Below, piece after piece: positions 75-61,635 of a stretch of 64,000 nt of DNA. The notes under the pieces are model-generated. The model worked only from the letters and a program-made list of their open reading frames with translations. It was not told the DNA's origin and did not search any database. The stretch is from contig JAOAUC010000061.1 in assembly GCA_030157785.1 (NCBI GenBank), forward strand, positions 62,001 to 126,000, given 5' to 3'. Made by a program: the position numbers and the translations under genes. The DNA is from Zoogloea oleivorans. GTDB lineage: Bacteria > Pseudomonadota > Gammaproteobacteria > Burkholderiales > Rhodocyclaceae. Position 1 is the stretch's first letter. Each line of letters begins with the position of its first letter.

Positions 75-118
75 TGTGCGCCAGCGTACCGACCGCGAAC
101 ATCACGGATGGGTAAGCT
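75..118 (+). promoter_or_regulatory. Class II Crp-like promoter of ndvB
   Basis: The 20-bp block TGTGCGCCAGCGTACCGACC occupies 75-94 and contains the dyad GTGCG-N4-CGTAC. A -10-like hexamer TAAGCT is at 113-118, one base beyond the register seen at most other sites. The predicted start of transcription is near 125, giving a leader of about 128 nt before the GTG at 253. Confidence 0.65.
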
Positions 119-252
119 GCGCTAGAGGTTTCGCCTTGGGCCGGTGGTGGATGCCGCCCGGAACAGCTTGCCTCTCCCTCGAGAAGCAGCCGTTTGCGCG
201 ATACCCCGGTCCATCGTCAGCCGTTCCATGGCGAAACTGCGGAAGGAATCGC

Positions 253-3200
253 GTGGCAACCCTGGCCAATCCCAGTCGACCGTTCAAAACCTGGTTTCCC
301 GGTAGCGGATGGCCACAGGCCTTCCGTGACGAAGAGCCGCCGTTGCGCTCGGAGTTGTTCAGTGCCGACCAGATGGCGCAACACGGTACGGTGCTCGCCG
401 CGTCCCACGTTCTTGCCAGCGGGCAGGCGCCGGACCAGTTGCTGGCCCGTCTGGCCGAGAACGAAAGCATCCTCGTCGATGTGTGCAAGCTGCTCACCCG
501 GGCGGTGGCCGACAGCCGCCGCATCGTGCCGGCCGGTGAATGGTTGCTCGACAACTTCTATCTCATTGAAGAACAGATCCGCATGGCCAAGCGGCTGCTG
601 CCCAAGGGCTACAGCCGGGAGCTGCCACGTCTGGAGGACGGTCTGGCCAGCCCGGCGGCCGGGCGGCCGCGGGTTTACGACATTGCGCTGGAAACCGTTG
701 CCCACGGGGACGGGCGGGTAGACGCCGAAAGTCTGGCCCGCTTCGTCGCCGCTTACCAGACTGTTGCGCCGCTCAAGCTCGGCGAGCTGTGGGCGATTCC
801 TATCATGCTGCGTCTCGCGGTGATCGAGAATCTGCGCCGCGTCGGCGTGCGCATTGCGGCGGGCTGGGTCGAGCGCGAACTGGCCGACTCGTGGGCCGAC
901 CGGATGACCGAAACCGTCGAGACGGACGCCAACGGCCTGATTCTGGTGATCGCCGACATGGTGCGCTCCGAGCCGCCGATGGCCAGCGCCTTTGTGGCCG
1001 AATTGGCCCGACGCCTGCAGGGCAGGGGGCCCGCACTGGCCCTGCCGCTGAACTGGATCGAGCAGCGTCTGGCCCAGTCGGGGCTGACCATCGAGCAACT
1101 GGTGCAGTCCGAAAACCAGCAGCAGGCCGCCGACCAGGTTTCCATCAGCAACAGCATCGGCAGCTTGCGGGTGCTGGGGGCGATGGACTGGCGGGATTTC
1201 GTCGAGGCCTTGAGCCTGGTCGAGCAGACCCTGTTGGGCGACCCGGACGGTGTTTACGGCCGGATGGATTTCGCCACCCGTGACCGTTATCGCCATGCCA
1301 CCGAGACCATTGCCCGCAAGGGCCGGATGAGCGAGGAGAACGTGGCCCGCAAAGCCGTGGAACTGGCCCGGGCTGGCGCCGAGGGCGCTGGCGGCCGGAC
1401 GGCGCATGTGGGTTACTACCTGATCGACAAGGGCTTGCCCGCGCTGGAACTGGCCGCCGAGGTACGCGTGGGGGCCGTTGAGACCTTGCGTCGGGCCGCC
1501 GGGCGCAGCCCCCTGAGCCTTTATCTGGGTGCGATTGCCCTGCTTGCGGTGGCGGTTGCCGCCTGCCTGCTGACCCCCGCGCTGGGCGTCGGGCTGCCTC
1601 TGGCGGCGCTGGTGCCGGTTGGCTTCCTGGCCTTGCTGGCCGGGAGCCAACTGGCCGTGGCCCTGGTGAACTGGCTGGTGACGCTGCTGGTGACGCCGCG
1701 CCCGCTGCCGCGGATGGATTTTTCGGAAGGCATTGCGGTGCCGTCGCGCACGCTGGTGGTGGTTCCGACCATGCTCACGGGCACCGCCAGCGTCGAGGGG
1801 CTGGTCGAGGCGCTGGAGGTGCGCTTTCTGGCCAACCGGGATGCCTGCCTGCACTTTGCGCTGCTCACCGATTTCCTCGACGCCCAGCAGGCCTCGCTGC
1901 CTGGCGACGCGGCCCTGGTGGCGCAGGCCCGGGCCGGGATCGCCGCGCTCAACGACAAGTACGCCCCTGCCGAATTCGACATCTTTTTCCTGTTTCACCG
2001 GCCGCGCTGCTGGAACCCCCTGGAGCAGGCGTGGATCGGCTGCGAGCGAAAGCGCGGCAAGCTCGCCGACCTGAATGCCTTGCTGCGGGGCGGTGGCCGT
2101 GACAGCTTCGCCCTGATCGAGGGCGACATTGCGGTGCTGTCCGGCGTCAAGTACGTGATCACGCTGGATACGGATACCCAGCTCCCGCGGGATGCGGCGC
2201 GGCATTTTGTCGGTGCCATGGCGCATCCGCTGAACCGCCCGCTCTACGACCCGGACAAGCGTCGCGTTGTAGAAGGCTACGGCATCCTGCAACCGCGGGT
2301 GGCGATCAGCCTGCCGGGCACCAGCCGTTCCCGTTACGCCAAATTGTATGGCGGCGAGCCGGGCATCGACCCCTACACCCGGGCCGTCTCGGATGTGTAT
2401 CAGGACGTGTTCGGCGAAGGCTCCTTCATCGGCAAGGGCATCTACGACGTGGATGCCTTCGAGCAGTCCCTCGGCGGATGCTTCCCCGACAACCGCATCC
2501 TCAGCCACGACTTGCTGGAAGGCTGCTATGCCCGGGCCGGGCTGCTCAGCGACGGTCTGCTTTTCGAGGACTATCCGGCCCGTTACAGCGCCGATGTGAG
2601 CCGTCGCCACCGCTGGATTCGCGGCGACTGGCAACTGGCCGGCTGGCTGCTGCGCCGGGTGCCCGGCGCGGGTGCCCAGCGGCTGGCGAATCGTCTGTCG
2701 GTGCTGTCCCAGTGGAAGCTCGTGGACAATTTGCGCCGCAGCCTCGTCCCGGCGGCGCTTACCTCGCTGTTCCTGACCGGTTGGCTTGTGCTGGACGCCA
2801 GCGGGCTATGGACGGCCTCGGTCATCGGTATCCTGCTGCTGCCCTCCCTGTGCGGTACCGTGCTCGACCTGCTGCGCAAGCCGGACGAAGTGCTGTTGCG
2901 GCAGCACCTGGCTGCCGTGGCCAGCAGCACCAAACGCCATTTCGCCCAGGTGGCCTTCGAGCTGGCCTGCCTGCCTTACGAAGCCTTCTTCAGCCTCGAT
3001 GCCATCCTGCGCACGCAGTGGCGCATGCATGTCAGCCATCGGGGCCTGCTCGAATGGAAGCCGTCGAGCGAAGTCGAGCGGGAGTCGGCCGGCCGCGGCC
3101 GCAGCGATCTGGCCGCCGCGTGGCGGGCCATGGTGGTTGCACCCGGCATTGCCTCGGTGGTCGCCTTGTGGCTGGCCATGGCGCATCCGGCTGCCCTGCT

Positions 3201-6200
3201 GGTGGCCGCGCCGGTGCTGCTGCTGTGGTTCGTCGCACCGCTGCTGGCCTGGTGGATCAGCAGCCCGCTGACAAGCCGCAAGGCCGTCCTGACGCTGGAG
3301 CAGACTTTGTTCCTGCGGGCTCTGGCGCGCCGCACCTGGCGCTTTTTCGGCACCTTCGTCGGCCCTGCCGACAACTGGCTGCCCCCCGACAATTACCAGG
3401 AATACCGTGTCGCCTCGGTCGCGCATCGCACCTCGCCCACCAACATGGGGCTGGCGCTGCTGGCCAATCTGTCGGCTTACGATTTTGGTTATATCCCGCT
3501 TGGCCCGCTCGTCGAGCGCACCACCCGCACCCTCTCCACCATGCAGGGCCTGGAGCGCTACCGGGGCCACTTCTACAACTGGTACGACACCCAGAGCCTG
3601 CAGCCCCTTGCGCCGCTTTACGTGTCCACCGTGGACAGCGGCAACCTGGCCGGGCATTTGCTGACCCTGCGGGCCGGTCTCGATGCCCTGGCCGACGACC
3701 AGATCCTGCGGCCGTGCTTTCTCGCCGGCCTGAGCGACACGCTGGTGATTCTCGAGGACGCCATCGGCAGCCCGCTGACAGCCTTCTGGAAGGCGCTGGA
3801 GTCGGCCTCCAGCACCTGCCCGACCACACTCCCGGCGGCCCGGGCTACCCTCGAAGGGCTGGCCCTTTGCGCCGCCGGGGTGCTCGCCCAGGCCAGGGGC
3901 AAGCTCGATGTCGGCGACGACAAGGCCCCGGCAGTCGAGGCACATGCCTGGGCCCAGGCCTTGGTCGAGCAGGTGCAGGAAGCGCTCGACGAACTGAACT
4001 TCCTGGCGCCGTGGCTGTTGCTCCCCAAGCCGCCCCGCGGGCTCGAGGCCCTGGTAACGGGGCTGGCCGGAGAGACGGGTATCCCGTCCCTGCGTAGATT
4101 GGTAGAGCTCGATGCCGAGCTGTCGCCACAGATCCGGCAATGCCTCGGCGGAGAAGTGACGGATGCCCAGCGCACCTGGCTGGCCGAGTTGCAGGGCGCC
4201 CTGGCGGAGGCGAGCGTCCGTGCCCGGGTGCGGATGATGGCCATCGACGGGCTGGCCCTGCAGGCTGCCGACCTGGCACGCATGGAATACGATTTCCTGT
4301 TCGACAAGACCCGCCATCTGCTGACCATCGGCTACAACGTGCCGGAGCGCCGGGTCGATTCGAGCTGCTACGACCTGCTCGCCTCCGAGGCGCGTCTGGC
4401 CTGTTTTGTGGCCATTGCCCAGGGAGAGTTGCCGAAGGAAAGCTGGTTCGCCCTCGGCCGTCTGCTCACCAGTGCCGGCGGCGAGCCGGTGCTGCTGTCG
4501 TGGAGCGGCTCGATGTTCGAGTACCTGATGCCCATGCTGGTGATGCCGACCTACGACAACACCCTGCTCGACCAGACCTGCAAGGCGGCGGTGGCGCGGC
4601 AGATCGACTACGGGCGCCAGCGCGGCGTGCCGTGGGGCATTTCGGAGTCGGCCTACAACACGGTGGATGCCCAGCTCAACTACCAGTACCGGGCCTTTGG
4701 CGTGCCAGGGCTGGGCCTCAAGCGCGGGCTGGCCGAAGATCTGGTGATTGCCCCGTACGCCGCGGTGCTGGCCCTGATGGTGGCCCCCGAGGCGGCCTGC
4801 CGGAACCTGCAGCGCATGGCCGTGGAAGGCTTCATGGGCAAGTTCGGGTTCTTCGAGGCGGTGGATTACACGCCGGCCCGGCAGCGCCGGGGGCAGGCCA
4901 GGGTGCCGGTGCGGGCCTTCATGGCTCACCACCAGGGCATGAGCCTGCTGGCTCTGGCCTACCTGGTGCTGGATCGCCCGATGCAACGGCGTTTCGAGTC
5001 GGACCGCAGCTTCCAGGCGGTCATGCTGCTCCTTCAGGAGCGCATCCCGAGGGCCACGGCCCTGTTCTCCCATTCGGCCGAGATTTCAGAGCTGCGCTCC
5101 CGCACCACCGACATGGAAACGCCAATCCGGATTTTCGACAGTCCGGATACGCCGATCCCCGAAGTCCAGCTGCTTTCCAATGGCCGCTACCACGTCATGC
5201 TGACCAATGCCGGCGGTGGTTACAGCCGCTGGAAAGACCTGGCCGTGACCCGCTGGCGCGAGGATGGCACCTGCGACAGCCTGGGTTCGTTCTGCTACGT
5301 GAAGGATGTGACGAGCGGGATCTACTGGTCCACCGCCCATCAGCCGACGCTGCGCCGGCCGAGTTGTTACGAGGCGATATTCTCCGAAGGACGGGCCGAG
5401 TTCCGGCGCCGCGATTTTGTTGGCGAGGAGGGCTCCGCCGGCGACATCGAGACCTACACCGAGATCGTCGTGTCGCCCGAGGACGACATCGAGCTGCGCC
5501 GGGTGCGCATCACCAACCGGACGCGCCTGCACCGGGAAGTTGAAGTGACCAGCTACGCCGAGGTGGTGATTGCGCCTCCGGCATCGGACGCGATGCATCC
5601 GGCCTTCAGCAAGCTCTTCGTGCAGACCGAGGTGCTGGCAGAGCAGGGGGCGATTCTGTGCATGCGTCGGCCGCGCTCCGCCGGCGAGCCGACGCCGCGC
5701 ATGCTGCACCTGATGGCCGTGCATGGGGCCGACACCGGCGCCGTATCGTGGGAGACCGACCGGGCGCGCTTCATCGGCCGCACCCGCAGCACTGCCGCAC
5801 CCCTGGCAATGGACCAGGCCGGCCCGCTGTCGGATACCGTTGGTGCCGTGCTCGACCCGATCGTGGCGATCCGCCAGCGCATCGTCCTGGCGCCGGAACA
5901 ATCGGTCACCGTCGACATCGTGTCGGGCATGGCCGATACCCGCGAGCTGGCCGTCGGCCTGGTGGACAAGTATCAGGACAGGCATCTGGCCGACCGCGTC
6001 TTCGATCTGGCATGGACCCACAGCCAGGTGGAGCTGCAGCAGATCAACGCGGTGGAAGCCGACGCCCAGCTTTACGCCCGGCTGGCCGCCTCGGTGCTCC
6101 ATGCCAATGCCTGCCTGCGCGCCGATCCGGCCCTGCTGATCAAGAACCGGCGCGGCCAGTCGGGTCTGTGGGGCTATTCCATCTCGGGCGATCTGCCGAT

Positions 6201-9015
6201 CGTGCTGCTGCAGATCGGGGATGCGGCCAACATCGACCTGGTGCGCCAGCTCGTCCAGGCCCATTCATACTGGCGCCTGAAAGGGCTGATGGCCGATCTG
6301 GTGATCTGGAACGAGGATCACGCCGGCTACCGTCAGCGCCTGCAGGACCAGATCATCGGGCTCATCGCCTCGGGTATCGGGGCCAGCGTGATCGACCGGC
6401 CGGGCGGCATCTTCGTACGCTCGTCCGAACAGATCTCGGCCGAAGACCGGCTGTTGTTCCAGTCCGTCGCCCGCGTCGTCATCATCGACAGCCAGGGCTC
6501 GCTGGTGGAGCAACTCGACCGCCGCGGCCTTCCCGACGTGCGCATGCCGCGCTTCGTGCCGAGCCGCCGGCATCGTCCCGAGCTCACCGTGGTCGACTCG
6601 ACGGAAGCGACGGCCGGGCTGCTGCTCTTCAACGGTCTCGGTGGCTTTACCCCTGACGGCAGTGAATACGTGATGGCCCTCGCGCCGGGGCAGGCCACGC
6701 CGGCCCCGTGGGCCAACGTGCTGGCCAACCCGCACTTCGGCACGCTGATTTCCGAAAGCGGTATGGCCTACACGTGGAGCGAGAACGCCCATGAGTTCCG
6801 CCTCACCCCGTGGCACAACGATCCGCTGTGCGATGCCGGCGGCGAGGCCCTCTACCTGCGCGACGAGGAAAGCGGCCACCTGTGGTCGCCGACGCCGCTG
6901 CCGGTGCGGGGCTTGACGCCCTGCGTGATCCGCCATGGTTTTGGCTACAGCGTCTTCGAAACCCGCTCGGACGGCATCGTCTCGGAACTGACGGTATTCG
7001 TTGCCATGGATGCGTCGGTGAAGTTATCGGTGCTCAAGCTGCGCAACGATTCCGGCCGGCCGCGGCGCCTGTCGGCAACCGGCTACGTGGAGTGGGTGCT
7101 GGGCGATCTGCGCGAAAAATCGGCCATGCACGTGAGCACCGAGATCGCCCCGCGCAGCGGCGCGCTCTTTGCGCACAACCCCTACAGCACCGAGTTCGCC
7201 GGGCGGGTGGCCTTCTTCGATGTGGATGACCCGATGCGTACCGTCACCGGCGACCGGGCCGAGTTCATCGGCCGTAACGGCTCCCTTCAGGATCCGGCGG
7301 CGCTCCGGCATACGGCCCTGTCGGGCAAGGTCGGCGCCGGGCTCGACCCGTGCGCGGCGATCCAGGTCGATTTCGAGCTGGCCGACGGGCAGACCCATGA
7401 AGTCGTCTTCCGCCTGGGCGTAGGGCGTGACATGGAGGACGCCGGCAAGCTCGTGCAACGCTTCCGCGGCATGCCGGCAACCCGCAGCGCCCTCGATGCG
7501 GTGCGCCAGTACTGGCGCCACACCCTCGGCGCGGTGCAGGTGGAAACCCCCGATCCGGCGCTCAATGTATTGGCCAACGGCTGGCTGATTTACCAGACCC
7601 TGGCCTGCAGGATGTGGGCGCGTGGCGGCTACTACCAGTCGGGTGGCGCCTTTGGTTTTCGGGACCAGTTGCAGGATTCGATGGCCCTCGTCCATACGGT
7701 GCCGTGGCTGGTGCGTGAGCACCTGCTGCTGTGCGCCAGCCGCCAGTTTGTTGAAGGTGACGTGCAGCACTGGTGGCATCCGCCATCGGGCCGCGGTGTG
7801 CGTACCCGCTGTTCGGACGACTTCCTGTGGTTGCCGCTGGCCGTGTGCCGCTATGTGGGCACCATCGGCGACACCGGCGTGCTGGATGAGATCGTGCCCT
7901 TCCTGGATGGCCGTCCGGTCAATCCGGAGGACGATTCCTACTACGACCAGCCGGCCCGCTCCGCCGAGTCGGTCAGCCTCTATGAACACTGCGTGCACGC
8001 CATCCGGCGCGGCATCCGGCAGATGGGCGAACACGGCCTGCCGCTGATGGGTTCCGGTGACTGGAACGACGGCATGAGCCGGGTCGGGATTGGCGGGAAG
8101 GGTGAAAGCGTGTGGCTGGGCTTCTTCCTGTGCGCGGTGCTGCGGGACTTCGCCGGAGTGGCCCGGGCCCATGGCGATGCCGACTTTGCGGCGCTGTGCG
8201 TGACGGAGGGCGAACGCCTGCGCCGAAGCATCGAGCAGCACGGCTGGGACGGGGAATGGTATCGCCGCGCCTACTTCGACGATGGCACACCCCTTGGTTC
8301 GGCCTCCGGCACCGAATGCCGGATTGACTCGATTTCGCAAAGTTGGGCGGTGCTGTCGGGGGCTGGCGACAGTGCACGCAGCCGCATGGCCATGGACGCG
8401 GTGGGGGAACACCTGGTGCGCAGCGACGATGGCCTGGTGCAGCTCCTCGACCCGCCCTTCGATTCGGCGGCGCTGGACCCGGGCTATATCCGCGGCTACA
8501 TCCCCGGCGTGCGCGAGAACGGCGGGCAGTACACCCACGCCGCGGTGTGGGCCGCCATGGCCTTTGCCGAGCTGGGCGAACATGAGTTGGCCTGGGCGCT
8601 GCTGCGGCTGATTGCGCCGGTCAACCACGCCCTGTCGGCCCGCAGCGCTGCGATCTACAAGGTGGAGCCCTACGTGGTGGCCGGTGACGTGTATGCCGTG
8701 GCGCCCCATGTGGGCCGTGGCGGCTGGACCTGGCACACCGGTGCGGCAGGGTGGACTTACCGGCTGCTCATGGAGTCACTGATCGGTCTGCGCCGGGAGG
8801 GCAATGTGCTGCACCTGGCACCGCGCCTGCCGGCCGAGTGGCCGGAGGTGAAGATCGCCTACCGCTTCCGCGAGACGGTCTTCCACATTCTTGTTTCACG
8901 GGCTGCGCCGGAAAACGGGGAGCGTGGCATGACGGTGGATGGCGTTGCGTGCCTCGACATGGCGATTCCACTGGTGGATGACCAGCGGGCGCACCACGTC
9001 GAGGTGAATATCTGA
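253..9015 (+). CDS. ndvB: Cyclic beta-1,2-glucan synthase (NdvB/ChvB type)
   Basis: Giant inner-membrane enzyme that makes cyclic beta-glucans from UDP-glucose and delivers them to the periplasm, where they serve in osmotic adaptation and envelope function. The GTG at 253 is chosen because GGAAGGA lies at 241-247; an open frame reaches back to 28 but has no such site. The product is about 2,920 residues, normal for the family. Visible parts: a hydrophobic stretch near residues 418-478, a glycosyltransferase core with LDTDTQLP (DxD near 639-641) and RHRWIRGDW near 785, long carbohydrate-binding and glucoamylase-like central regions, and a C-terminal GH94 phosphorylase-like domain with GSGDWNDGM near 2600-2607, which in this family sets ring size. 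It is a single-gene unit ending at a strong hairpin, and its promoter carries the shared dyad. Confidence 0.95.
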
Positions 9016-9517: not shown

Positions 9518-9598
9518 GCGGGCTCCTTGGGTCGTGATTGACCCGTCTGACGCTAAAGCAGTCCGTCCGGCGAGTCTGTGCGTAAGCCCACAGAGGTG

Positions 9599-9641
9599 TG
9601 TGTGTTGCCCGACAGACCGGGCCTGTGCATCCACCTATCTT
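9599..9641 (+). promoter_or_regulatory. Class II Crp-like promoter of the PRC-barrel gene
   Basis: TGTGTGTTGCCCGACAGACC at 9599-9618 keeps the outer TGTG and GACC arms but has a degenerate centre. The hexamer TATCTT at 9636-9641 has A and T in the exact shared register. The start codon is 94 bp beyond the block. Confidence 0.55.
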
Positions 9642-13204: not shown

Positions 13205-13247
13205 ACAATGGCAGTGAAGCCATGGGGCGTCGGTGCGCTGTCGCGCT
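13205..13247 (-). promoter_or_regulatory. Class II Crp-like promoter of the CsbD gene
   Basis: Read on the minus strand the block is AGCGCGACAGCGCACCGACG (13247-13228), with hexamer CATTGT at 13210-13205 in exact register. It is the left member of a convergent pair of blocks whose centres are 53 bp apart. Confidence 0.7.
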
Positions 13248-13280: not shown

Positions 13281-13323
13281 TGTTCGCCAGCGCACCGAGG
13301 CCGCGTGGGCATCGGCAGACAAT
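13281..13323 (+). promoter_or_regulatory. Class II Crp-like promoter of DUF3309-cbpA-cbpM
   Basis: TGTTCGCCAGCGCACCGAGG at 13281-13300 is followed by hexamer GACAAT at 13318-13323, in exact register. Predicted transcription starts near 13330, giving a leader of about 67 nt. Confidence 0.72.
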
Positions 13324-14826: not shown

Positions 14827-14869
14827 TGTCTGGCAGCGCACCGACTGACGCGTCACGCCCTGTAAAGCT
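14827..14869 (+). promoter_or_regulatory. Class II Crp-like promoter of the flavodoxin-like reductase
   Basis: TGTCTGGCAGCGCACCGACT at 14827-14846 begins 10 bp after the cbpM stop codon. Hexamer AAAGCT at 14864-14869 is in exact register. The start codon is 53 bp after the block. Confidence 0.68.
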
Positions 14870-16939: not shown

Positions 16940-17058
16940 CCGATCAGGATGGAGGCTGGAGGCGTTGCAGTCTGTGCTGCAGCCAACATTGGGCGCCATA
17001 CCCCAAGAAACCAATCTGGGCGGAATGCTGATTTTTGCTAGCATGAAAATGGAAGTTT

Positions 17059-17105
17059 TATATGTTGGCTATCGCACACAGTAATTCCTGCTTTTAGCCT
17101 ACTCT
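17059..17105 (+). promoter_or_regulatory. Class II Crp-like promoter of the Crp-PAS regulator (possible autoregulation)
   Basis: The + strand reads TATATGTTGGCTATCGCACA at 17059-17078, the same block in the opposite orientation to most sites, with its dyad (GTTGG-N4-CGCAC) centred at 17070.5. A hexamer TACTCT at 17100-17105 has A and T exactly where a dyad centred at -41.5 predicts. Predicted transcription starts near 17112. Confidence 0.6.
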
Positions 17106-17172: not shown

Positions 17173-18477
17173 ATGCCCAGTTCTACTCCCGACAGCCCGC
17201 GACAAAACCGCATTCTGGCGGCCCTGTCGCCGGAAGAATATGCTCGACTGGCGGATGATCTGGAACTTGTCAGCCTGCCTGAGGGGCAGACTCTTCTCGA
17301 ATCCGGCGACAGTCTGGTTTTTGTCTATTTCCCCACAACCTCCATTTTTTCGCTGATTTCCACGACCGAGAACGGTTCGTCGGCCGAACTTGCCATGACC
17401 GGCAAGGATGGTCTGGTGGGGATTCCGCTGGTGCTGGGCGGCGACACGAGCAACTACAAGGTTGTCGTGCAAAGCGCAGGCAAGGCCTACCGCCTGCGCG
17501 CCGAGGTGATGTGCTGGGAGCTCGAGCAGAGCGGCAATCTGCGCCGGCTGGCCCTGAGTTACACCCAGGCTTTGATGACCCAGATGGCCCAGAGCGTAGT
17601 GTGCAACCGGCACCACTCAGTTGATCAGCAGCTGTGCCGCTGGCTGCTCCTCACCCTCGACCAGATGGACGGGAATCAGCTCCATGTGACCCAGGAAGTG
17701 ATCTCCAACATGCTCGGGGTGCGCCGCGAAGCCGTTACCGAGGCTGCCGGCAAGCTCCAGGCGGCCGGCTTGATCCAGTACCGCCGGGGCAACATCACGG
17801 TTACCGACCGCCCCGGCCTGGAGGCGCGGGTATGCGAGTGCTACGGCGTGGTCAAGGCCGAATACGATCGGCTCTTCCGTCTGCTGGCGGCTGCACCGGA
17901 CCGCTATCGGGCCCGCCCCAACCCGGCAACCCTGCGCCAGCGCGCCGAGGCCCGTTTGCAGCAGGCCCAGTCCGTTACTCAGGGGAGCCAGTGGGATGCG
18001 GAGCGACTGCTCCACGAACTGCAGGTGCACCAGATCGAACTCGAGATGCACAACGAGGAACTCCGCAACGCCTACGACGAGGCGGACACCCTGCGCGAGA
18101 AATACGCGGACATCTACGACTTTGCGCCGGTCGGCTATTTCACCCTGGATGCCCATGGCTCCATCCTGCAGATCAACCTGGCGGGGGCCATCCTGCTCGG
18201 CATGAAGCGCTCGCAAATGGGGCGCTCGCGCTTCGCCGCATCGGTAAAGCCGGAATTCCTGCCGGAATTCAATGGCTTTCTGGCCGATGTGGCGAGCGGC
18301 AGGGGGCGCAACAAATGCGAAGTTGCCTTGATTGCCACCAGTCAGCGCCCCGAGGCCCTGGTCCGCATTGAAGCGGTCATGGACGAAGGGGGCCGGGAGT
18401 GCCGTATGGTGGTGATGGACGTCACCGAAAAATCGCCCTTTGCTGTGCGTGCAGCGCGTACCGATTCCATCGGGTAG
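17173..18477 (+). CDS. Crp/Fnr-family regulator fused to a PAS domain
   Basis: A 434-residue transcription regulator. ATG 17173 is chosen because GAGG is 8 bases upstream; an ATG at 17155 and a TTG at 17125 lack ribosome sites. Residues about 12-130 form a cyclic-nucleotide-binding-type sensor, 150-225 the HTH with recognition helix LGVRREAVTEAAGKL (Arg-Glu placed as in CRP), 255-310 a coiled linker containing LLHELQVHQIELEM, and 313-425 a PAS domain (YDFAPVGYFTLDAHGSILQINLAGA). The Fnr N-terminal cysteine cluster is absent. A C-terminal PAS on a Crp protein is unusual and could add a second input. It is the only Crp/Fnr gene seen here, and its own promoter carries the shared dyad, so it is the leading candidate for the regulator of that dyad. 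Confidence 0.85.
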   Translation: MPSSTPDSPRQNRILAALSPEEYARLADDLELVSLPEGQTLLESGDSLVFVYFPTTSIFSLISTTENGSSAELAMTGKDGLVGIPLVLGGDTSNYKVVVQSAGKAYRLRAEVMCWELEQSGNLRRLALSYTQALMTQMAQSVVCNRHHSVDQQLCRWLLLTLDQMDGNQLHVTQEVISNMLGVRREAVTEAAGKLQAAGLIQYRRGNITVTDRPGLEARVCECYGVVKAEYDRLFRLLAAAPDRYRARPNPATLRQRAEARLQQAQSVTQGSQWDAERLLHELQVHQIELEMHNEELRNAYDEADTLREKYADIYDFAPVGYFTLDAHGSILQINLAGAILLGMKRSQMGRSRFAASVKPEFLPEFNGFLADVASGRGRNKCEVALIATSQRPEALVRIEAVMDEGGRECRMVVMDVTEKSPFAVRAARTDSIG

Positions 18478-18870: not shown

Positions 18871-20328
18871 TCAGTCCTGTGCGTCTGCCAGCGGATCGGG
18901 GCGTAGCCAGCGCAGCAGGGTCTGGAACAGTTCTTCGATGTTCACCGGCTTGGCAATGAAGTCATTCATCCCGGCTGCGAGGCAGCGCTCCCGGTCCGGG
19001 GCGAAGGCGCTGGCGGTCATCGCAACGATCGGTGTCGCGCTGCGATCCACCAGTTGCCGGATTTTTCGGGTGGCTTCAAGCCCGCCCATTTTCGGCATCT
19101 GCTGATCCATCATGATCAGTGCGTAGTCGGTCGCACTGGCCTTCTCTATGGCCTCGATGCCGTTTTCGGCGATGTCGACCTTCAGGCCGATGTCCGTCAG
19201 CAGCATTTCCATCACTTCCCGGTTGATCGCATCGTCGTCCACAACAAGGACTCTGGCACCCCGATGGTCGCGCTGGAGGATTTGTTCTGCGTTGTCCGGC
19301 AGCTCGGGTGGTGCGGCACTTTCGAGCGGCTCTCCCTTGCCCAGCCGCACGTCCAGCCAGAAGGTGCTGCCCTGGCCGGGGATGCTGGTTACGCCGACCT
19401 CGCCGCCCATGAGCTGGATAATTTTCCGGGTGATGGCCAGGCCTAGCCCGGTGCCGCCGAATCTGCGGGTTGTCGAACTGTCGGCCTGCGTGAAGGCCTC
19501 GAAGAGTCGCGCCTGCCCGTCCGGCGCGATGCCGATGCCGGTGTCGATGACCTCGAAATGCAGCAGGTAGTCGTTGTCGGTTTCCGCACTGACGCGGCCC
19601 TTGAGGACGATGCTGCCCTCGGGGGTGAACTTGATGGCATTGCCCAGGTAGTTGATGAGCGCCTGCGCCAGGTGCGTGCGGTCGCCGCACAGGGCCTGCG
19701 GCATGTCCTGCATGTCGACACTGAGTTGCAGGCCTCTTGCGGATGCGCCGTTGGCGACGACTGCCAGCGTGTCGCCGATCATGTCGTCCAGCGTGAAGTC
19801 GGCGTGTTCCAGCACCAGCTTGCCGGCCTCGATCTTGGAGAAGTCGAGGATGTCGTTGATGAGGCTGCTCAGGTGGCGGCCCGACACTTCGATCTTGTCG
19901 AGCTGGTCGGCCTGCTTCGGGTTTACGCCGCCGCGGCGCAAGAGGTGGGCCATGCCCAGGATGCCGTTCAGCGGCGTCCGGATCTCGTGGCTCATGTTGG
20001 CGAGAAAGCTGGTCTTGGCGCGGTCGGCCGCCTGGGCCGCATCGCGGGCCGCCAGCAGTTCGGTTGTACGAGCGGCGACCAGTTCTTCGAGCCGCGCATT
20101 GAGGACGCTCAGTTGCTCGCGTGCCTCGTTGGCATCGTCGCGGGCGGCGCGCAATTCTTCGTTCTGCATCTCCAGCTCGACCTGATGAACCTGGAGTTCG
20201 TGCATCAGCCGCAGCGCATCGATTTCATCCGGGCAGGCGGTCGACTGCTGTTCCTGCACGAGACGCGCTTCGGCGTTCCGGCGCAGCCTGGCGGCCGCCT
20301 TGTGGCCGGGGGGCGGCTCAGTGCTCAC
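18871..20328 (-). CDS. Hybrid sensor histidine kinase with receiver domain
   Basis: A 485-residue cytoplasmic hybrid kinase. The GTG at 20328 is chosen because GGGAGG lies 7 bases upstream and the start overlaps the end of the CheB-CheR gene by 11 bp. Order: linker with [14 protein letters not shown] (about 41-54), coiled coil, HisKA with [10 protein letters not shown] (phospho-His 114), HATPase with [17 protein letters not shown] and GGTGLGLAI, then a C-terminal receiver ([13 protein letters not shown]; phospho-acceptor Asp near 408 in [11 protein letters not shown]). No sensor or membrane domain is present, so its input probably comes from the upstream CheB-CheR-PAS protein. Confidence 0.9.
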
Positions 20329-22906
20329 GGCGTGCCTCCCTTTTGCGCAGGCGGGCTTCAAGTTGCTTGATGCCGGTGATGTCGATGAAGGTGACCACCA
20401 CGCCGTCGATCACGTTGTCCTGGGTGCGGTAGGGCATTATGCGCACCCGGTACCAGCGTCCGTCCTCGGTGCACACCTGTTTCTCGCTGAAGATCAGGGT
20501 GGTCAGCACGGCCGTCGCGTCGTCCTGCAGGGCGGGGTAGTCGAGGTCGGTGACAATGTCGGAAAGCGAGCGTCCGACGTCTCCGGGGATGAACTTGAAG
20601 AGATGCGTGGCGTGGGTGGTGAAGCGTCGCAGTTTCATCTCGTTGTCGAGAAAGATGGTGGCGATTTCCGTGCTGTTGAGCAGGTTCGTCATGTCGTTGC
20701 GCGCCCAGGTCAGATCGTCCACCTTGGATTGCAGCTCGGCGTTCATCGTTTGCAGTTCCTCGTTCATCGACTGCAATTCTTCTTTCGAGGTGGTGATTTC
20801 CTCATTGGTGACCTGGAGCTCCTCGTTGGCCGACTTCACCTCTTCCATGGACGACTGCATTTCTTCCTGGTTGACGCGCAGGGTTTCGCGGGTCTGGGCC
20901 AGTTCGACGGTCAGGGCATTCTCCCGGTCGGAGGCCTCGCTCTGGCGGGGTTTGTGGCGTCCCGGCATGGCCTTCACGTCGTTGAAGACGACGAGCACCC
21001 GGTTGCGCAGCGATTCCGGCTTGTTGATGCCCTGCACGGTGATGTTGACGGTTTGCATGCCGCCGTCAGTGGAGACCTGCAGGCCGTTCAGGTGAATGGG
21101 CTGGGGCTGGTGCAGGGCGTTGCGGATCACCCCGGTCAGCGCGTCGCGCAGGCCGTCGCGGGCCATCGCATGGATGTTGATGTTTACCTTGCCGGCGGGG
21201 GGTTCCAGGTACTTGCCGACGCGCCCGCTGATGTAGAGGATGTCGCCGTCGCTGTTGGTCAGTACCGCAGCGGGCGAGTAGTTCTGCTGGATGAGCTGGT
21301 TGGTCAGGTATTCGAGGCTGTCCCGGTAGTCCGGCCGTTCGCCGTCGATCACCACGCGGACTCCGGACGGCGTCCGCGCCGGGATGTCCATCCACGACGA
21401 GCCGGAGAGACGGTCGATGCGCTGGAAGATGTGGGTTTTCTTGTCGATGGGGGCAAACAGGTCAGTGAAGCCGCCAACGGTTTCGGCGCTGCCCAGTACC
21501 AGGATGCCTTCGCGGCTCAAGGCGTAATGAAACAGGGGCAGGATCTTCTTCTGCAGCTCGGGGCCGAAGTAAATCAGCAGGTTGCGGCAGGACAGGATGT
21601 CGAGCCGGGTGAAGGGCGGGTCGGAGACAATGTTCTGCGGCGCAAAGATGACCATCTCGCGAATGTCCCGGTCGACCCGGTAGTTACTTTCGTCGGCAAC
21701 GAAGTAGCGGGCCAGCCTTTCCGGCGTCACGTCGGCGGCGATATTGGCCGGGTAGCAGGCCTGGCGGGCCTTGTCGATGGCATCCACGTCCAGGTCGGTG
21801 GCGTAGATCTGCAGCGAGAAGTGCGCCTCGGGCTTGAGCTGCTCGAGCACCTCCTTGAAGACGATGGCCAGCGAATAGGCTTCTTCGCCGGACGAGCAGG
21901 CCGGCACCCAGGCGCGCAGGGCCTTGCCCTCCGGGTGCTTGGCGAGCAGGGCGGGAATGGCCGTGTCGCGCAGGAATTCCCACACGGAGGGGTCGCGAAA
22001 GAAGTTGGTGACGCCGATCAGTACTTCCTTGAAGAGCAGGTCGAGCTCTTGCGGGTTGTCGCGCAAGTAGCCCACGTAGTCGGCAATGCCGGCGATCTGG
22101 AGCAGGGCGATGCGTCGCTCGATGCGCCGGTACAGGGTGCTTGGCTTGTACAGGGACAGATCGTTGCCGGTGCGGTTGCGCAGCAGGACGATGATGCGCT
22201 CAAGGGCGCTTTGCTCGCCGGTCTGCGGTGCGGCGTTGGTCTTGAGGCCCGGCGGGGCGTGTCGCAGGTAGGCGGCAATGCGCGCCACCACTTCTTCTGC
22301 CGGGGCGACGATATCAACGACGCCGGCCTTGATGGCGCTGCCGGGCATGCTGTCGGCCTTGGCGCTGGCCGGGTCCTGGGCGAGGGTCAGGCCGCCTTTT
22401 TCCTTGATTGCACCGAGGCCGAGCATGCCGTCGGAACCCATGCCCGACAGCACCACGCCGATGGCTTTGTCCTGGCGGTCGTCGGCCAGCGTGCGCAGAA
22501 AGAAATCGATAGGCAGGCGCAGGCCGCGCTTTTCGGCGGGATCGAGCAGGTGCAGGACGCCGCGGAGCAGGGACAGGTCCTTGTTGGGCGGAATCACGTA
22601 AACGCAGTCGGGCCGGACCTCCATGCGCTCGCCGGCCTCGACCACCGGCATCGGGGTTGCACGCTGCAGAAGTTCAGGCAGATTGCTGGTGTGCTGCGGG
22701 TCGAGGTGCTGGACGATGACGAAGGCCATGCCGCAGTCGGCGGGGACATGGGACAGCAAGGCTTCGAGGGCTTCGAGCCCGCCGGCCGAGCAGCCGATGC
22801 CGACAATGGGAAAGTCGGCGTCCCGGGTACGGCTCCGGGCGGGGCGGGCCGCGTGTTCCGGGCTCGTCACGCTTTCAGCCGTCGTGACGCTGCTTTCTTT
22901 GACCAT
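20318..22906 (-). CDS. CheB-CheR-PAS fusion protein
   Basis: An 862-residue cytoplasmic fusion. Residues 33-215 are a CheB methylesterase with Ser40 (GCSAGG), His67 (VQHLDP) and Asp159 (SGMGSDG). Residues about 240-500 are a CheR methyltransferase with its N-terminal helical domain and [13 protein letters not shown] for SAM binding. A PAS-like segment follows ([22 protein letters not shown]), then a long coiled coil ([17 protein letters not shown] onward) and a final PAS ([19 protein letters not shown]). No receptor or CheA is nearby, so this is likely a non-chemotaxis signalling module working with the overlapping hybrid kinase. Confidence 0.92.
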
Positions 22907-24251: not shown

Positions 24252-24294
24252 AGGATGGACTGCTGGGCAGCAGGGGTCGGTGCGGTGGAGCACA
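24252..24294 (-). promoter_or_regulatory. Class II Crp-like promoter of the Cys-repeat gene
   Basis: On the minus strand the block reads TGTGCTCCACCGCACCGACC (24294-24275) and hexamer CATCCT lies at 24257-24252, in exact register. The start codon is 85 bp from the block. Confidence 0.7.
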
Positions 24295-26984: not shown

Positions 26985-27027
26985 AGTCTGGATGTCGGTT
27001 GATTGTGCGTCGGTGTGCCAGCACACG
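26985..27027 (-). promoter_or_regulatory. Class II Crp-like promoter of the KaiC operon
   Basis: On the minus strand the block reads CGTGTGCTGGCACACCGACG (27027-27008), with hexamer CAGACT at 26990-26985 in exact register. The dyad core here is almost perfectly symmetric (GTGTGCTGGCACAC). Confidence 0.7.
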
Positions 27028-27860: not shown

Positions 27861-27903
27861 ATGGTGGGCGAAGCCTGACGTATCGTCTGTTCGGCAGCAT
27901 ACG
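27861..27903 (-). promoter_or_regulatory. Weak Crp-like promoter candidate for the L,D-transpeptidase gene
   Basis: A degenerate block (minus strand CGTATGCTGCCGAACAGACG, 27903-27884) is followed by hexamer CACCAT at 27866-27861 in the shared register. Predicted transcription would begin at about 27854, next to the ATG at 27853, implying a leaderless message or a coincidental match. Confidence 0.3.
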
Positions 27904-27932: not shown

Positions 27933-27975
27933 TGCTCGATAGCGCACATACGCCGACGGTCTTTCGACCTACCTT
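27933..27975 (+). promoter_or_regulatory. Class II Crp-like promoter of the OYE-exporter operon
   Basis: TGCTCGATAGCGCACATACG at 27933-27952 matches the block with a few changes, and hexamer TACCTT at 27970-27975 is in exact register. The start codon is 79 bp from the block. Confidence 0.55.
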
Positions 27976-37853: not shown

Positions 37854-37915
37854 GATCGGTGCTCCCGTAAGGGTGTCAGTCGAAGGGCCGGATTGACCGG
37901 GGCAAATAAAGGGGC

Positions 37916-39568: not shown

Positions 39569-41214
39569 GGGCAGGCTCCCGTGGCGAGGCTGTCGCGGAG
39601 CAGGCGGTAGCGGCGGATCAGGGCGTTGGTGGAACTGTCGTGAGCGAGTGCCGGCAGCGTGGTGGCCCGCAGTTCGGCAAAGGTGGTGCCGGCCAGCTGC
39701 TTGCCCAGTTCGACACCCCACTGGTCGAAAGAGTCGATGTTCCAGATGACGCCCTGCACGAATACGCTGTGCTCGTAGAGGGCAATCAGGGTGCCCAGCG
39801 ACCAGGGCGTGAGGCGGGCGGCGAGGACGGTGTTGCTCGGGCGGTTGCCCTCGCAGCAGCGGTGGGCCACCAGCTCGTCGGGCGTGCCTTCGGCGCGCAC
39901 TTCGTCGGCATTGCGCCCGAAGGCCAGGGCCTCGCCCTGGGCCAGCATGTTGGCGATCAGCAGGTCGTGCTGGACCGGCAGGGGGTTGAGAGCCTGGCCG
40001 AAACCGATGAAATCGCAGGGCACGATGCGGGTGCCCTGGTGGATCAACTGGTGAAAGGAGTGCTGGCCATTGGTGCCCGGCTCGCCCCAGTAGATCGGCC
40101 CGGTGGCGTAATCGACGCGGACACCGTCCACGGTGACGTGCTTGCCGTTGCTCTCCATGGCCAGTTGCTGCAGGTAGGCCGGAAAGCGTTTGAGGTATTG
40201 CTCGTAGGGCAGCACGGCAACGGTGGCGGCGTCGAGAAAGTTGTTGTTCCACACGGCCAGCAGGCCCATCAGCACCGGCAGGTTGTGGTCCAGCGGCGTG
40301 TCGCGAAAATGCACGTCCATGGCGTGCATGCCGGCCAGCATGTCGCGAAAGGCGGCCGGGCCGATGGCCAGCAGCGTGGACAGGCCGATTGCCGAATCCA
40401 TCGAGTAGCGCCCGCCGACCCAGTCCCACAGGCCGAACATCTGCGCCGGGGCGATGCCGAAGGCGGCAACCCGCTCGGCGTCGGCAGACACCGCAACGAA
40501 GTGGCGGGCCACGGCGGCGTCGCTACCCAGCGCGTCCACACACCACTCCCGGGCGGCGTGGGCGTTGCTCAGGGTCTCGAGGGTGGTGAAGGTTTTCGAG
40601 CAGACGATGAAAAGGGTTTCGGCGGCGTCGAAGTCGCGCAGTGCTTCGGCCAGATCGGTGCCGTCCACGTTGGACACGAAGCGAAAGCGCAGGTCGCGGC
40701 GGCTGTAGGCGCGCAGGGCTTCCCAGGCCATCACCGGGCCCAGGTCGGAGCCACCGATGCCGATGCTGACGACGTTGCGCACCGGCTGGCCGGTGTAACC
40801 GAGCCAGCTGCCGGTGCGTACCGCGTAGGCAAAGGCGTCCATGCGGGCGAGCACCTCGTGCACATCAGCCACCACATCACGGCCGTCCACCCATATCTGT
40901 TCGCCGGCCGGAGCACGCAGGGCCACGTGCAGTGCGGCCCGGTGCTCGGTGGTGTTGATGAGATCGCCGCGGAACATGGCCGCGATGTGCTGCGGCAGCG
41001 CGCAGGCCTCGGCCAGCGCGAACAGGAGCGGGCAGGTGTCGACGGTGATGCGCTGGCGGGAGTAATCCAGGTACAGGCCGGCGGCTTCGGCCGTGAAGCG
41101 CTCGCCCCGGGCCGGGTCGGCGGCAAACAGGTCGCGCAGGTGCAGGCTGCCGATTTCGGCGAAGTGTTGCCCGAGCGCCAGCCACTCGGGGCGCCGGGTC
41201 AGCTCGGGGCTCAT
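39565..41214 (-). CDS. pgi: Glucose-6-phosphate isomerase
   Basis: A 549-residue enzyme interconverting glucose-6-P and fructose-6-P. Family signatures are [15 protein letters not shown] (written here as [14 protein letters not shown]), [18 protein letters not shown] and the C-terminal [19 protein letters not shown]. Length is normal. ATGA overlaps with both neighbours (transaldolase upstream, phosphoglucomutase downstream). Confidence 0.96.
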
Positions 41215-42314
41215 GGCGTCGGCGTGGCGGGCGGCGTCACGTCGAGATTGGCCGATTTTTCGTCGATGCGCTGCAGCAGTTGTTGCCAGGATTTCACGAA
41301 GGCCTCGGCGCCGTCGAGTTGCAGGCGGGCGGCGAGGGCATTTACATCCACGCCGGCGAGGGCGATTTCAGCCAGTACCGCGTCGGCGTCGCCGCCGTCG
41401 ATGGGCATTACGCCGGCCAGCGTGCCGTGATCGGCGAAGGCGTGCAGAGTCTTCTCGGGGAGTGTGTCGATGGTGCCGGGGGCGGCCAGTGCAGTGACGT
41501 ACAGGGTGTCGGAAGCCTGCGGGTCCTTGGTGCCGGTGCTGGCCCACAGCAGGCGCTGGGGTCGGGCGCCGGCGGCCGCCAGCTTGAGCCAGCGCGGCGA
41601 GGTAAACAGCGTGCAGTAGGCCCGGTAGCTTTGCCCGGCCACGGCGATGCCCAGCTTGTGTTGCAGCGCTGCCGGCAGTTGCGGGTTGGCGGCCACGTCC
41701 CAGCGGCTGATGAACAGCGACGCGACCGAAGCCACGCAGGGGTCGAGGCCGGCTTCGACGCGCCGTTCGACGCCGCGCAGGTAAGCCTCGGCCGCCGCCA
41801 GATAATGAGCGCAGGAGAACAGCAGGGTCACGTTGATCGGGATGCCGGCAAAAATCGCCTCTTCAATGGCGATCAGCCCTTCCGGGGTGCCGGGAATCTT
41901 CACGAACAGGTTCTTGCGCCGCCCCTGGGTATGGATCTGCCGGGCCGCGGCAAGCGATGCGCCAGCGTCGGCGGCCAGCAGCGGCGAGATTTCCATCGAC
42001 ACCCAGCCGTCGATCTGGTCAGTGGCGTCGAAGACCGGCCGCAGCAGGTCGGCGGCGCGGCGCAGGTCATCCAGCGCCAGTTCGATGAACAGCGCCTCGC
42101 CGCTCAGCCCGAGCAGGGTCTTCGCGGTGATCGCCGTGTCGTAGGCCGTACCGCTGCCGATGGCGGCATCGAAAATGCTCGGATTGGAGGTTAGCCCGGT
42201 GATCGAATCTTCGGCGATGTAGCGTGCCAGCGTGCCGTCGTCGAGGAGCGTGCGGGTGATGTTGTCGAGCCACAGGCTCTGGCCGAGTCCGTGTAACTGC
42301 CGGGTTGCGTTCAT
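41211..42314 (-). CDS. tal: Transaldolase
   Basis: A 367-residue transaldolase of the longer bacterial type that moves dihydroxyacetone units between sedoheptulose-7-P and glyceraldehyde-3-P. Signatures: [18 protein letters not shown] at the N-terminus, Schiff-base Lys in [13 protein letters not shown], and [11 protein letters not shown]. First gene of the five-gene operon, with a dyad promoter 59 bp upstream shared back-to-back with the lactate dehydrogenase promoter. Confidence 0.95.
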
Positions 42315-42349: not shown

Positions 42350-42392
42350 AATCTGCGCGTCATGCCGGCGGGCGTCGGTTCGCTGTCGCACG
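42350..42392 (-). promoter_or_regulatory. Class II Crp-like promoter of tal-pgi-pgm-xfp-tkt
   Basis: Minus-strand block CGTGCGACAGCGAACCGACG (42392-42373) with hexamer CAGATT at 42355-42350, in exact register. Centre-to-centre distance to the divergent ldh block is 33 bp. Confidence 0.75.
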
Positions 42393-42405: not shown

Positions 42406-42447
42406 TGTACGCCACAACACAGACTGGCACAGGGGCATATGGACAAT
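42406..42447 (+). promoter_or_regulatory. Class II Crp-like promoter of the lactate dehydrogenase gene
   Basis: TGTACGCCACAACACAGACT at 42406-42425, with hexamer GACAAT at 42442-42447, one base closer than the shared register. The start codon is 53 bp beyond the block. Confidence 0.6.
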
Positions 42448-42477
42448 CGGGCGCTTCCGAACCCCTGGGAGACTTCC

Positions 42478-50090: not shown

Positions 50091-50133
50091 AGAATGGATA
50101 GAAATGCCGGGCGGGTCCGTGTGCTGTCGCACC
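50091..50133 (-). promoter_or_regulatory. Class II Crp-like promoter of the MFS-oxidoreductase-nifJ operon
   Basis: Minus-strand block GGTGCGACAGCACACGGACC (50133-50114), hexamer CATTCT at 50096-50091 in exact register. The start codon is 62 bp away. The divergent block is centred 31 bp to the right, about three helical turns. Confidence 0.75.
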
Positions 50134-50144: not shown

Positions 50145-50188
50145 TGTGTGTCAGCAGACAGACCGGCCTCGGGGGCGGTGCGCAGACT
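50145..50188 (+). promoter_or_regulatory. Class II Crp-like promoter of the second efflux operon
   Basis: TGTGTGTCAGCAGACAGACC at 50145-50164, with hexamer CAGACT at 50183-50188, one base beyond the shared register. The start codon is 55 bp from the block. Confidence 0.6.
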
Positions 50189-58282: not shown

Positions 58283-58325
58283 CGCGTGCCAGCGAACGGA
58301 CCCTGTCCCGCGCTTGACAGATAGT
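58283..58325 (+). promoter_or_regulatory. Class II Crp-like promoter of the 98-residue protein gene
   Basis: CGCGTGCCAGCGAACGGACC at 58283-58302, hexamer GATAGT at 58320-58325 in exact register. The start codon is 52 bp from the block. A TTGACA at 58314-58319 directly precedes the hexamer and is not in -35 position for it. Confidence 0.68.
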
Positions 58326-58669: not shown

Positions 58670-58712
58670 GGTTCGGTAGCGCACCGACGCCGTGGCTGCG
58701 GCCGCGCAAGAT
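58670..58712 (+). promoter_or_regulatory. Class II Crp-like promoter of the second DUF883 gene
   Basis: GGTTCGGTAGCGCACCGACG at 58670-58689, hexamer CAAGAT at 58707-58712 in exact register. The start codon is 72 bp from the block. Confidence 0.65.
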
Positions 58713-58760
58713 GATTACTCGCAATGGCACTCATGCCATTCACCTGCAGCAGGAGGGATC

Positions 58761-59093: not shown

Positions 59094-59094
59094 T

Positions 59095-59283: not shown

Positions 59284-59303
59284 ATGCGTTTCGTCATATT
59301 GCC

Positions 59304-59350
59304 GTTGTGTTGGCTGGCGCACGGAAGTGTCTATAACTTGAGAGCAGCAT
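59304..59350 (+). promoter_or_regulatory. Class II Crp-like promoter of the SYLF gene
   Basis: GTTGTGTTGGCTGGCGCACG at 59304-59323 is the block in the opposite orientation (as at the Crp gene), with its dyad centred at 59315.5. Hexamer CAGCAT at 59345-59350 fits a centre at -41.5. A competing pair TTGGCT (59310-59315) and TATAAC (59332-59337), 16 bp apart, also looks like a promoter overlapping the dyad. Confidence 0.55.
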
Positions 59351-59453
59351 GAAACCTCGCGGCGTACTGGTTGGCATTTGCCGATTGCCCTTCGCCGCTT
59401 GATCCGTCTTCTGCAATCGGAAACGATTACGGAGCAACCGAAAGGACAAACAA

Positions 59454-60017: not shown

Positions 60018-60034
60018 TCCGCTTTCAGGTATCC

Positions 60035-60059
60035 AACGGCAGGTTCATCCTGCCGTTTT
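60035..60059 (+). terminator. Rho-independent terminator after the SYLF gene
   Basis: AACGGCAGG (60035-60043), loop TTCAT, CCTGCCGTT (60049-60057), followed by TT. A perfect 9-bp stem with a T-rich end just after the stop codon. Confidence 0.85.
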
Positions 60060-60077
60060 CACGTCCACTTTGGGCCG

Positions 60078-60809: not shown

Positions 60810-61511
60810 TCAGACCGGCGCGCCGAACAGGGCGCCAACCCCGGCGGTGATCGCCATGGCCAGCGCACCCCAGAAGGTGACCCGCGCCGCGCCGACCACC
60901 GGGCTGGCGCCGCCGGCCTGGGCCGCGACGGCACCCAGCAGGGCCAGAAAAACCAGGGATGTGCCGGATACCCACGGGATCAAACCCTGCCCGGGCACCA
61001 GCGCCGTGACGGCCAGGGGCAGGGCGGCGCCCACCGCAAAACTGGCGGCCGAGGCCAGGGCCGCCTGTACCGGCCGTGCGCTGAGCGCGTCCGAAATACC
61101 GAGTTCGTCGCGGGCATGGGCGCCGAGGGCGTCGTGCTGCATGAGCTGTTCGGCCACCTGCGCGGCGAGCTTGTATTCCAGGCCGCGGCCTACGTAGATT
61201 GCGGTCAGCTCGCGCAGTTCGGCGGCTGGCGCGGTTTCTAGTTCGATGCGCTCGCGGCCGAGGTCGGCCTTTTCGGTATCGGCCTGGGAATGCACCGACA
61301 CATATTCGCCGGCCGCCATCGACATGGCGCCGGCCACCAGTCCGGCAACACCCGTCACCAGGATGCTGCTGTGGCTCGAACTGGCGGCGGCCACGCCAAC
61401 CACCAGGCTGGCGGTGGATACGATGCCGTCGTTGGCGCCCAGAACGGCGGCGCGTAGCCAGCCGATGCGGTCGGTGCGGTGGCGTTCCTTGTGGCGCTGG
61501 AGTGAGGTCAT
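60810..61511 (-). CDS. VIT1/CCC1-family metal transporter
   Basis: A 233-residue membrane protein of the VIT/CCC1 family, which move Fe2+/Mn2+ out of the cytosol. Signatures: GWLRAAVLGANDGIVSTASLVVGVAAA, VAGAMSMAAGEYVSVHSQ, a soluble metal-binding Glu-rich helix pair (about 75-150), then three C-terminal helices. ATG 61511 gives the usual family start; a TTG at 61538 is in frame. The match to the dyad on its side is not in register. Confidence 0.9.
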   Translation of the reverse strand: MTSLQRHKERHRTDRIGWLRAAVLGANDGIVSTASLVVGVAAASSSHSSILVTGVAGLVAGAMSMAAGEYVSVHSQADTEKADLGRERIELETAPAAELRELTAIYVGRGLEYKLAAQVAEQLMQHDALGAHARDELGISDALSARPVQAALASAASFAVGAALPLAVTALVPGQGLIPWVSGTSLVFLALLGAVAAQAGGASPVVGAARVTFWGALAMAITAGVGALFGAPV

Positions 61512-61592
61512 GGCTGGCGGGAGCGGGTTAGTAGGCAATCCCCGGAGCTTAGGGCAAACCGGCGATCAACGGCAGTATCGGGCAAGGGGCTT

Positions 61593-61635
61593 TGCGCGGT
61601 GGCGCACAGACCGGGCGTGCGCGGGCGGCGATGAT
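61593..61635 (+). promoter_or_regulatory. Class II Crp-like promoter of phaC
   Basis: TGCGCGGTGGCGCACAGACC at 61593-61612, hexamer GATGAT at 61630-61635 in exact register. The start codon is 77 bp from the block. Confidence 0.62.

Follow-up and report, generated by a model that had tools for sequence, protein, structure and literature searches.

At class II promoters, the site of CRP or FNR lies at about -41.5. The CRP operator is TGTGA-N6-TCACA, and CRP contacts cyclic AMP (cAMP) through E72 and R82-S83. The FNR box is TTGAT-N4-ATCAA, and FNR carries an N-terminal Fe-S cysteine cluster. The RpoS-type general stress regulon of enterics includes kinds of target (CsbD, DUF883 and small membrane proteins) that overlap with those described below. 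In Burkholderia cenocepacia, the low-oxygen-activated (lxa) locus is presented (PMC6127331, PMC9104464) as an island of about 50 stress and metabolism genes with a Crp-Fnr type oxygen sensor as the suggested regulator. Six universal stress proteins are encoded there, and BCAM0049, the regulator suggested, shares 43% sequence similarity with Anr (PMC6127331). Here we describe a 64,000-base stretch of a Zoogloea genome (the window; bases 62001-126000 of the 141,700-base contig C61 in a genome of 4.69 Mb) in which 21 promoters of a single gene island, and a weak 22nd, carry a common 20-bp block. This block is very probably the operator of an autoregulated class II activator of the Crp family, Crp-PAS, that is encoded within the island and would control envelope, stress and storage genes.

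A sequence-only reading of the window had listed 17 start regions sharing the block, which it described as built on the dyad GTGYG-N4-CGNAC. All 17 carry the block, but the list was incomplete, as four strong members and a weak site before a VIT1-family gene had been missed. One listed member, a small unknown protein, has its site but is 86 aa long by the present gene call and not 98 (gene starts were assigned with a simple purpose-written gene-calling script rather than a standard gene finder). Blocks were scored over the 18 defined letters of the 20-mer, taking the best block per start region, and 200 dinucleotide shuffles of this 67% GC sequence served as control. Scores of at least 12/18 are found in 19 of 30 island start regions (shuffle mean 2.45, largest value 8) and in one of 37 start regions elsewhere on the same contig; scores of at least 14/18 are found in 12 of 30 (shuffle mean 0.065). 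The shared block is confirmed and is stronger than first claimed. The signal is carried by the full 20-mer, whereas the bare dyad is weak alone: exact copies number seven against an expectation of 2.57 (a count reached by 3 of 100 shuffles), and there are 67 matches with one mismatch against 67.8 expected. A better description of the motif is TGTnCG-nYRn-CGnACA with an overlapping -35 after it, which in Zoogloea reads nnGACn. Noncoding DNA makes up 3.8 kb of the island and coding DNA 58.9 kb. Matches of at least 15 letters number nine noncoding to none coding, so at these scores, within the island, the block is not equally common inside genes. At 14 or more letters the counts are 12 and four, and at 13 or more they are 15 and 25.

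The block stands in a fixed register to a -10-like hexamer with A at its second and T at its sixth position (A2/T6). It had been proposed that this hexamer lies 17 bp past the block in 14 of the 17 listed promoters. The letters agree, with distances of 18 bp for ndvB and the second exporter and 16 bp for ldhA. When 22 sites were picked on the block alone (at least 11 letters), 13 had an A2/T6 hexamer 17 bp on, compared with no more than two at any of 19 other offsets. After matrix refinement, A2 is present in 18 and T6 in 18 of the 22 island sites. The same register is seen in relatives. Matches to a 15-base core (at most one mismatch), chosen without the -35 or -10 letters, gave 388 distinct sites in 78 regulator loci, of which 139 have the hexamer at this register against a mean of 18.4 per offset over 60 offsets. 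There is a shoulder of 36 matches one base further on, and offsets 16 (44 matches) and 71 (33 matches) likewise exceed two standard deviations. In both data sets the register is beyond chance. If the hexamer occupies -12 to -7, the dyad centre falls by arithmetic at -41.5 from the predicted start. A special sigma factor is not favoured: a sigma-S-like C at -13 occurs in 13 of the 22 window sites and is not seen in the 388 matches from relatives.

The regulon is largely a local island. A search of the whole genome for the block, spacing and A2/T6 together (at most three mismatches) returned 11 matches, eight of them in the island, and none for the reversed control. Of the other three, one is on contig C58, at a distance of about 1.4 kb from the Crp-PAS paralog there, and one each is on C64 and C80. 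The block alone, with three mismatches, gives 38 matches against 17 in controls. A position weight matrix (PWM) was trained on the island sites, and the counts for C61, which include this training set, are 22 of 67 start regions above 15 bits, 21 of them in the island. The one outside, a strong site, precedes an AsmA-family gene at C61:8126 (28.4 bits; Pfam). The scan of related genomes that had been suggested also finds sites: in relatives of the genus, start regions above 15 bits number 14/41 (g18), 15/45 (g03), 13/49 (g16), 8/27 (g13), 7/37 (g12), 5/42 (g06) and 1/26 (g05), and a genome of another genus has 16/42 (g30). Twelve promoters could be paired, by gene or position, with counterparts in Z. 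oleivorans; across these pairs identity is 90% in the block and 54% in the spacer. The block at C80:80878-80920 is conserved in Z. oleivorans (G018:C95:133768); in both genomes it stands just before a gene that is alternative oxidase-like by eye and has no good hexamer, the C80:80878 site being without the T.

Crp-PAS has the conserved domains PF00027 (29.8 bits; cut-off 27.5) and PF13545 (HTH_Crp_2; 56.2 bits; cut-off 27), with PAS matches in Pfam below the cut-off. Its assignment to the Crp/Fnr superfamily rests on a cyclic nucleotide-binding-like beta domain, a Crp-type helix-turn-helix and Foldseek matches to CRP, GlxR and FNR. The first 240 residues were modelled with a mean pLDDT of 90.7, and all fifty matches listed from the PDB are Crp/Fnr proteins; the best are GlxR, mycobacterial CRP, E. 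coli CRP and FNR, and NtcA is also present. These listed matches have 14-21% identity and query-normalised TM scores mostly of 0.6-0.75, a few being lower. A search of the NCBIfam curated regulator models gave no families at E-values up to 0.001. Cys144, His148, Cys221 and Cys223 are invariant in a 47-row alignment, and Cys155 and His147 are nearly so; we infer that these conserved Cys and His residues may form a redox or metal switch. Of the 22 genomes sampled from the genus, 7 encode full-length Crp-PAS relatives, as does one genome of another genus. The regulator family is wider than Crp-PAS, because most of the relatives fetched consist only of the Crp core of about 240 residues. The core search kept the best 80 of 488 relatives, giving 78 named loci that are mostly from Betaproteobacteria, with some from Gammaproteobacteria such as Halomonas; one of them, Z. 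oleivorans, is the closest named relative among those kept. The 22 best-matching loci encode the longer relatives (294-879 residues) and bear many Rhodocyclales names (e.g. Thauera, Aromatoleum, Azonexus, Dechloromonas), and the other loci encode proteins of 207-267 residues.

Motif and regulator co-occur across the order. The sample comprised 300 genomes including that of the window, 100 of which have the regulator core; leaving out the window's own genome, the counts are for 99 genomes with the core and 200 without. Because the presence search scored only a fraction of the candidates for many of the genomes, the gene may be present in some of the 200. Matches to the 18-base pattern number 261 (control 37) in the 99 genomes and 76 (control 38) in the 200. 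At least two matches are found in 62 of 99 genomes with the core compared with 11 of 200 without (Fisher 1e-26, which is descriptive because the related genomes are not phylogenetically independent). Seven of these 11 were re-tested with a profile and gave no match to the regulator, G218 being outside the re-test; G247 has a weak partial match. In G045 the Crp gene is cut by the contig end, and the adjoining dyad reads on both strands. The matches in G050 were rejected as regulon sites, as they form a 60-base periodic array (C1:473747-477089) like CRISPR repeats, which we take to be of type I-F; they are still included in the counts. Such an array is a trap for genome-wide motif counts.

The motif is also found upstream of the regulator genes themselves. 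Of 73 regulator genes, 35 have the core in the 350 bp upstream; among background windows it is present in 231 of 6091. This count excludes Z. oleivorans and four loci whose upstream DNA was too short. Genes encoding E at helix residue 186 have the upstream core in 34 of 60 cases, and those encoding S, P or A in 1 of 16. A target survey took 499 matrix matches above 14 bits, training sites included, from 88 sources (77 named loci and 11 regions of this and other genomes) and collected open reading frames starting within 330 bp downstream. The most recurrent target is the regulator itself (62 of 88 sources), a count that is biased upward because the loci were fetched for holding the regulator. 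Other recurrent targets, by number of sources, are CsbD (17), DUF3309 (15), glycine-zipper (14), PRC-barrel (13), DUF4398 (13), DUF883 (11), NdvB (11), DUF5670 (10), OmpA-like (10), BON (9), SYLF (9) and Cys-repeat (9) proteins, with family names from Pfam for window members and otherwise by eye; several further target clusters are overlapping spurious frames.

The mechanism that we propose would work as follows. The block is taken as the operator of a Crp/Fnr-subfamily activator, here Crp-PAS, joined to the -35 of each target promoter. A dimer would bind directly to TGTnCG-N4-CGnACA, centred at about -41.5, and would touch RNA polymerase, presumably in its sigma-70 form, at the overlapping nnGACn -35 and the nAnnnT -10, as in class II activation. 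In this way the regulator would activate its own gene and the genes of the island around it, which relate to the envelope, general stress, fermentation and storage. The predicted set includes periplasmic glucan synthesis, CsbD, DUF883, DUF3309, CbpA, PRC-barrel, SYLF and KaiC proteins and the exporters, as well as the phosphoketolase pathway, ldhA, nifJ and phaC. The earlier view of one dyad in one register at many promoters under a Crp-family regulator is supported by the register, the genome scan, the conservation, the co-occurrence and the site upstream of the regulator gene.

The idea that the block is an artefact of chance or of GC-rich composition is encouraged by the near-chance count of the bare dyad with one mismatch, but the shuffles, the register in the window and in relatives, and the genome scan with its control leave it a negligible probability, and it was rejected. 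More probable, but still unlikely, is one regulon whose binder is a different Crp/Fnr protein, Crp-PAS being a mere target. The genome does encode paralogs, two of them (on C12 and C58) 74-75% identical to Crp-PAS and one (C10) 50% identical; a block with one mismatch lies about 100 bp upstream of the C10 gene, and C58 has a site nearby. However, Crp-PAS is the only such DNA-binding regulator among the island proteins that were read by eye or scanned (part of the total), and genomes across the order tend to have its family and the motif together. FNR or Anr is judged an improbable binder, as the letters of the FNR box differ from this motif and the window protein has no Cys before residue 114. 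Slightly less probable again is repression, in which a dimer at -41.5 would cover the -35 and block RNA polymerase until released by a signal. The overlap of site and -35 would suit such a role, but a repressor needs no fixed register, and the fixed spacing together with poor -10 hexamers (C at the first position in 11 of 22 island sites) fits activator-dependent promoters.

Several observations weigh against activation by Crp-PAS as proposed. Strong sites on the contigs of the C12 and C58 paralogs are few (1 of 21 start regions on C58 and none of 10 on C12), and these paralogs could share the sites. The matches at C64:1325 and C80:80878 are outside any known island, and the hexamer letters are out of line at the fixed register in 2 of the 12 Z. 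oleivorans promoter pairs. Besides G050 and G045, nine genomes without a clear Crp gene have at least two block matches. In same-genus genomes without the regulator, a gapped scan gives 14 matches against 6 in the control (G019), 13 against 3 (G020) and 6 against 0 (G004); block-only matches there are near the control (6 and 6, 9 and 7, 2 and 2, respectively). No core lies within 350 bp upstream of 38 of the 73 Crp-family genes, and the residue 186 contrast follows phylogeny (Paraburkholderia, Pandoraea, Caballeronia, Trinickia).

The sites and principal genes are listed in the table. Pfam scans covered part of the window's proteins, and several gene names were assigned by eye.

Table. Predicted Crp-type sites and associated genes in the window (site rows span the block and the hexamer)
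Feature	Position	Strand	Basis
Site and -10, DUF4398 and OmpA-DUF4398 genes left of the window, newly added	1..42	-	0 mismatches to block and hexamer; PWM 31.4; Pfam
Site and hexamer (18 bp) before ndvB-like gene	75..117	+	Block, matrix
NdvB-like cyclic glucan synthase (GH94, glucoamylase domains)	253..9015	+	Pfam; NdvB name from the sequence-only reading
Site and -10 before RcnB-like protein, newly added	9550..9592	-	PWM 23.3; Pfam
Site and -10 before PRC-barrel protein	9599..9641	+	Matrix; Pfam
Site and -10 before CsbD	13205..13247	-	Matrix; Pfam
Site and -10 before DUF3309-cbpA-cbpM	13281..13323	+	Matrix; Pfam for DUF3309, cbpA/cbpM by eye
Site and -10 before flavodoxin-like reductase	14827..14869	+	Matrix; weak NCBIfam matches below cut-off
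Site and -10, 179 bp upstream of glycine-zipper protein start, newly added	16946..16988	-	PWM 26.5; Pfam
Site and -10 before the Crp-PAS gene itself	17063..17105	+	PWM 21.3; 15/20 block letters common with Z. oleivorans
Crp-PAS regulator	17173..18477	+	Pfam; structure model of first 240 residues
Site and -10 before Cys-repeat secreted protein	24252..24294	-	Matrix
Site and -10 before KaiC operon	26985..27027	-	Matrix; KaiC-like NCBIfam matches below cut-off
Site and -10 before YkuD-domain protein, newly added	27861..27903	-	PWM 23.1; Pfam
Site and -10 before OYE-ABC exporter operon	27933..27975	+	Matrix; Pfam
Site and -10 before tal-pgi-pgm-phosphoketolase-tkt operon	42350..42392	-	Matrix; Pfam for pgi, pgm, phosphoketolase; tal, tkt by eye
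Site and hexamer (16 bp) before ldhA-like gene	42406..42448	+	Matrix; D-lactate/2-hydroxyacid dehydrogenase NCBIfam matches below cut-offs
Site and -10 before MFS-nifJ operon	50091..50133	-	Matrix; Pfam for MFS
Site and hexamer (18 bp) before second exporter	50145..50187	+	Matrix
Site and -10 before small unknown protein	58283..58325	+	Matrix
Site and -10 before DUF883	58670..58712	+	Matrix; Pfam
Site and -10 before SYLF (Ysc84) protein	59308..59350	+	Matrix; Pfam; NCBIfam SYLF match below cut-off
Weak site before VIT1-family gene	61566..61608	-	PWM 13.4; Pfam
Site and -10 before phaC	61593..61635	+	PWM 25.8; polyhydroxyalkanoate synthase NCBIfam match below cut-off

The last base of the hexamer of the leftmost site lies one base outside the window, and the weak VIT1 site and the phaC dyad overlap, on opposite strands. 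The tal-tkt operon (33421-42314, minus strand) encodes transaldolase-like, phosphoglucose isomerase, phosphoglucomutase, phosphoketolase (XFP) and transketolase-like proteins, a bifid-shunt-like set (the middle three by Pfam, the ends by eye). Zoogloea is mainly aerobic, and such a set is unexpected there. Near the regulator, at 18871-22906 on the minus strand, are genes for a CheB-CheR-PAS protein and a histidine kinase-receiver protein (Pfam). A stretch of the kinase gene product matches the Crp-PAS linker (59% over 61 residues), which hints at a shared signalling route. The DNA left of the island (C61:1-62000) carries a type VI secretion-like cluster with a large filamentous hemagglutinin-like gene, both named by eye.

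It is possible, if less likely than not, that the island belongs to a widespread, undescribed general stress system of Betaproteobacteria and some Gammaproteobacteria. In such a system, a Crp subfamily with Cys144, His148, Cys221, Cys223 and Cys155 would sense redox state or a metal through these residues and drive an RpoS-like set of envelope genes clustered about its own, and Rhodocyclales would have a branch extended by PAS. The regulator, operator, promoter register and target list can all be read from the sequence, and they concern common genes of unknown function (CsbD, DUF883, DUF3309, DUF4398, DUF5670 and SYLF) in many Beta- and Gammaproteobacteria. The stress response of these bacteria can now be tested directly, and the operator can serve to annotate the regulon wherever a genome bears the regulator. 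In Zoogloea, phaC and the phosphoketolase pathway would be linked to the same switch.

Among the titles and abstract openings listed from the open-licence PubMed Central (PMC) literature, from which subscription journals are mostly absent, none was found to name the motif or the regulator. Crp/Fnr regulons are already known; what is new here, as far as that literature shows, is the operator, the subfamily and the island. The lxa locus is similar in being a stress and metabolism island with a suggested Crp-Fnr type regulator. It was not adopted as the identity of this island. The two differ in the similarity of the suggested lxa regulator to Anr and in the six universal stress proteins of lxa, of which no counterpart was noticed in the window, where part of the proteins were Pfam-scanned and no dedicated test was made. 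The word "motif" is absent from the main text of both articles on that locus (PMC6127331, PMC9104464). A listing that bears on RpoS-type targets is PMC5437024; that regulon differs in depending on a sigma factor, compared with a predicted Crp-type operator here. With respect to CRP and FNR of E. coli, the motif counts give TGTnCG-N4-CGnAC, a half-site of TGTnCG and not TGTGA or TTGAT. The recognition helix (RREGVTE) retains the R-E of CRP, with E in place of R185 of CRP, and in the cAMP-contact region the A1 consensus has no RSA, the order being S-R-A (both comparisons by eye). The likeness to the class II promoters of these proteins lies in the Crp fold with its helix-turn-helix and in a 16-bp dyad that overlaps the -35 and lies about 41.5 bp from the predicted start.

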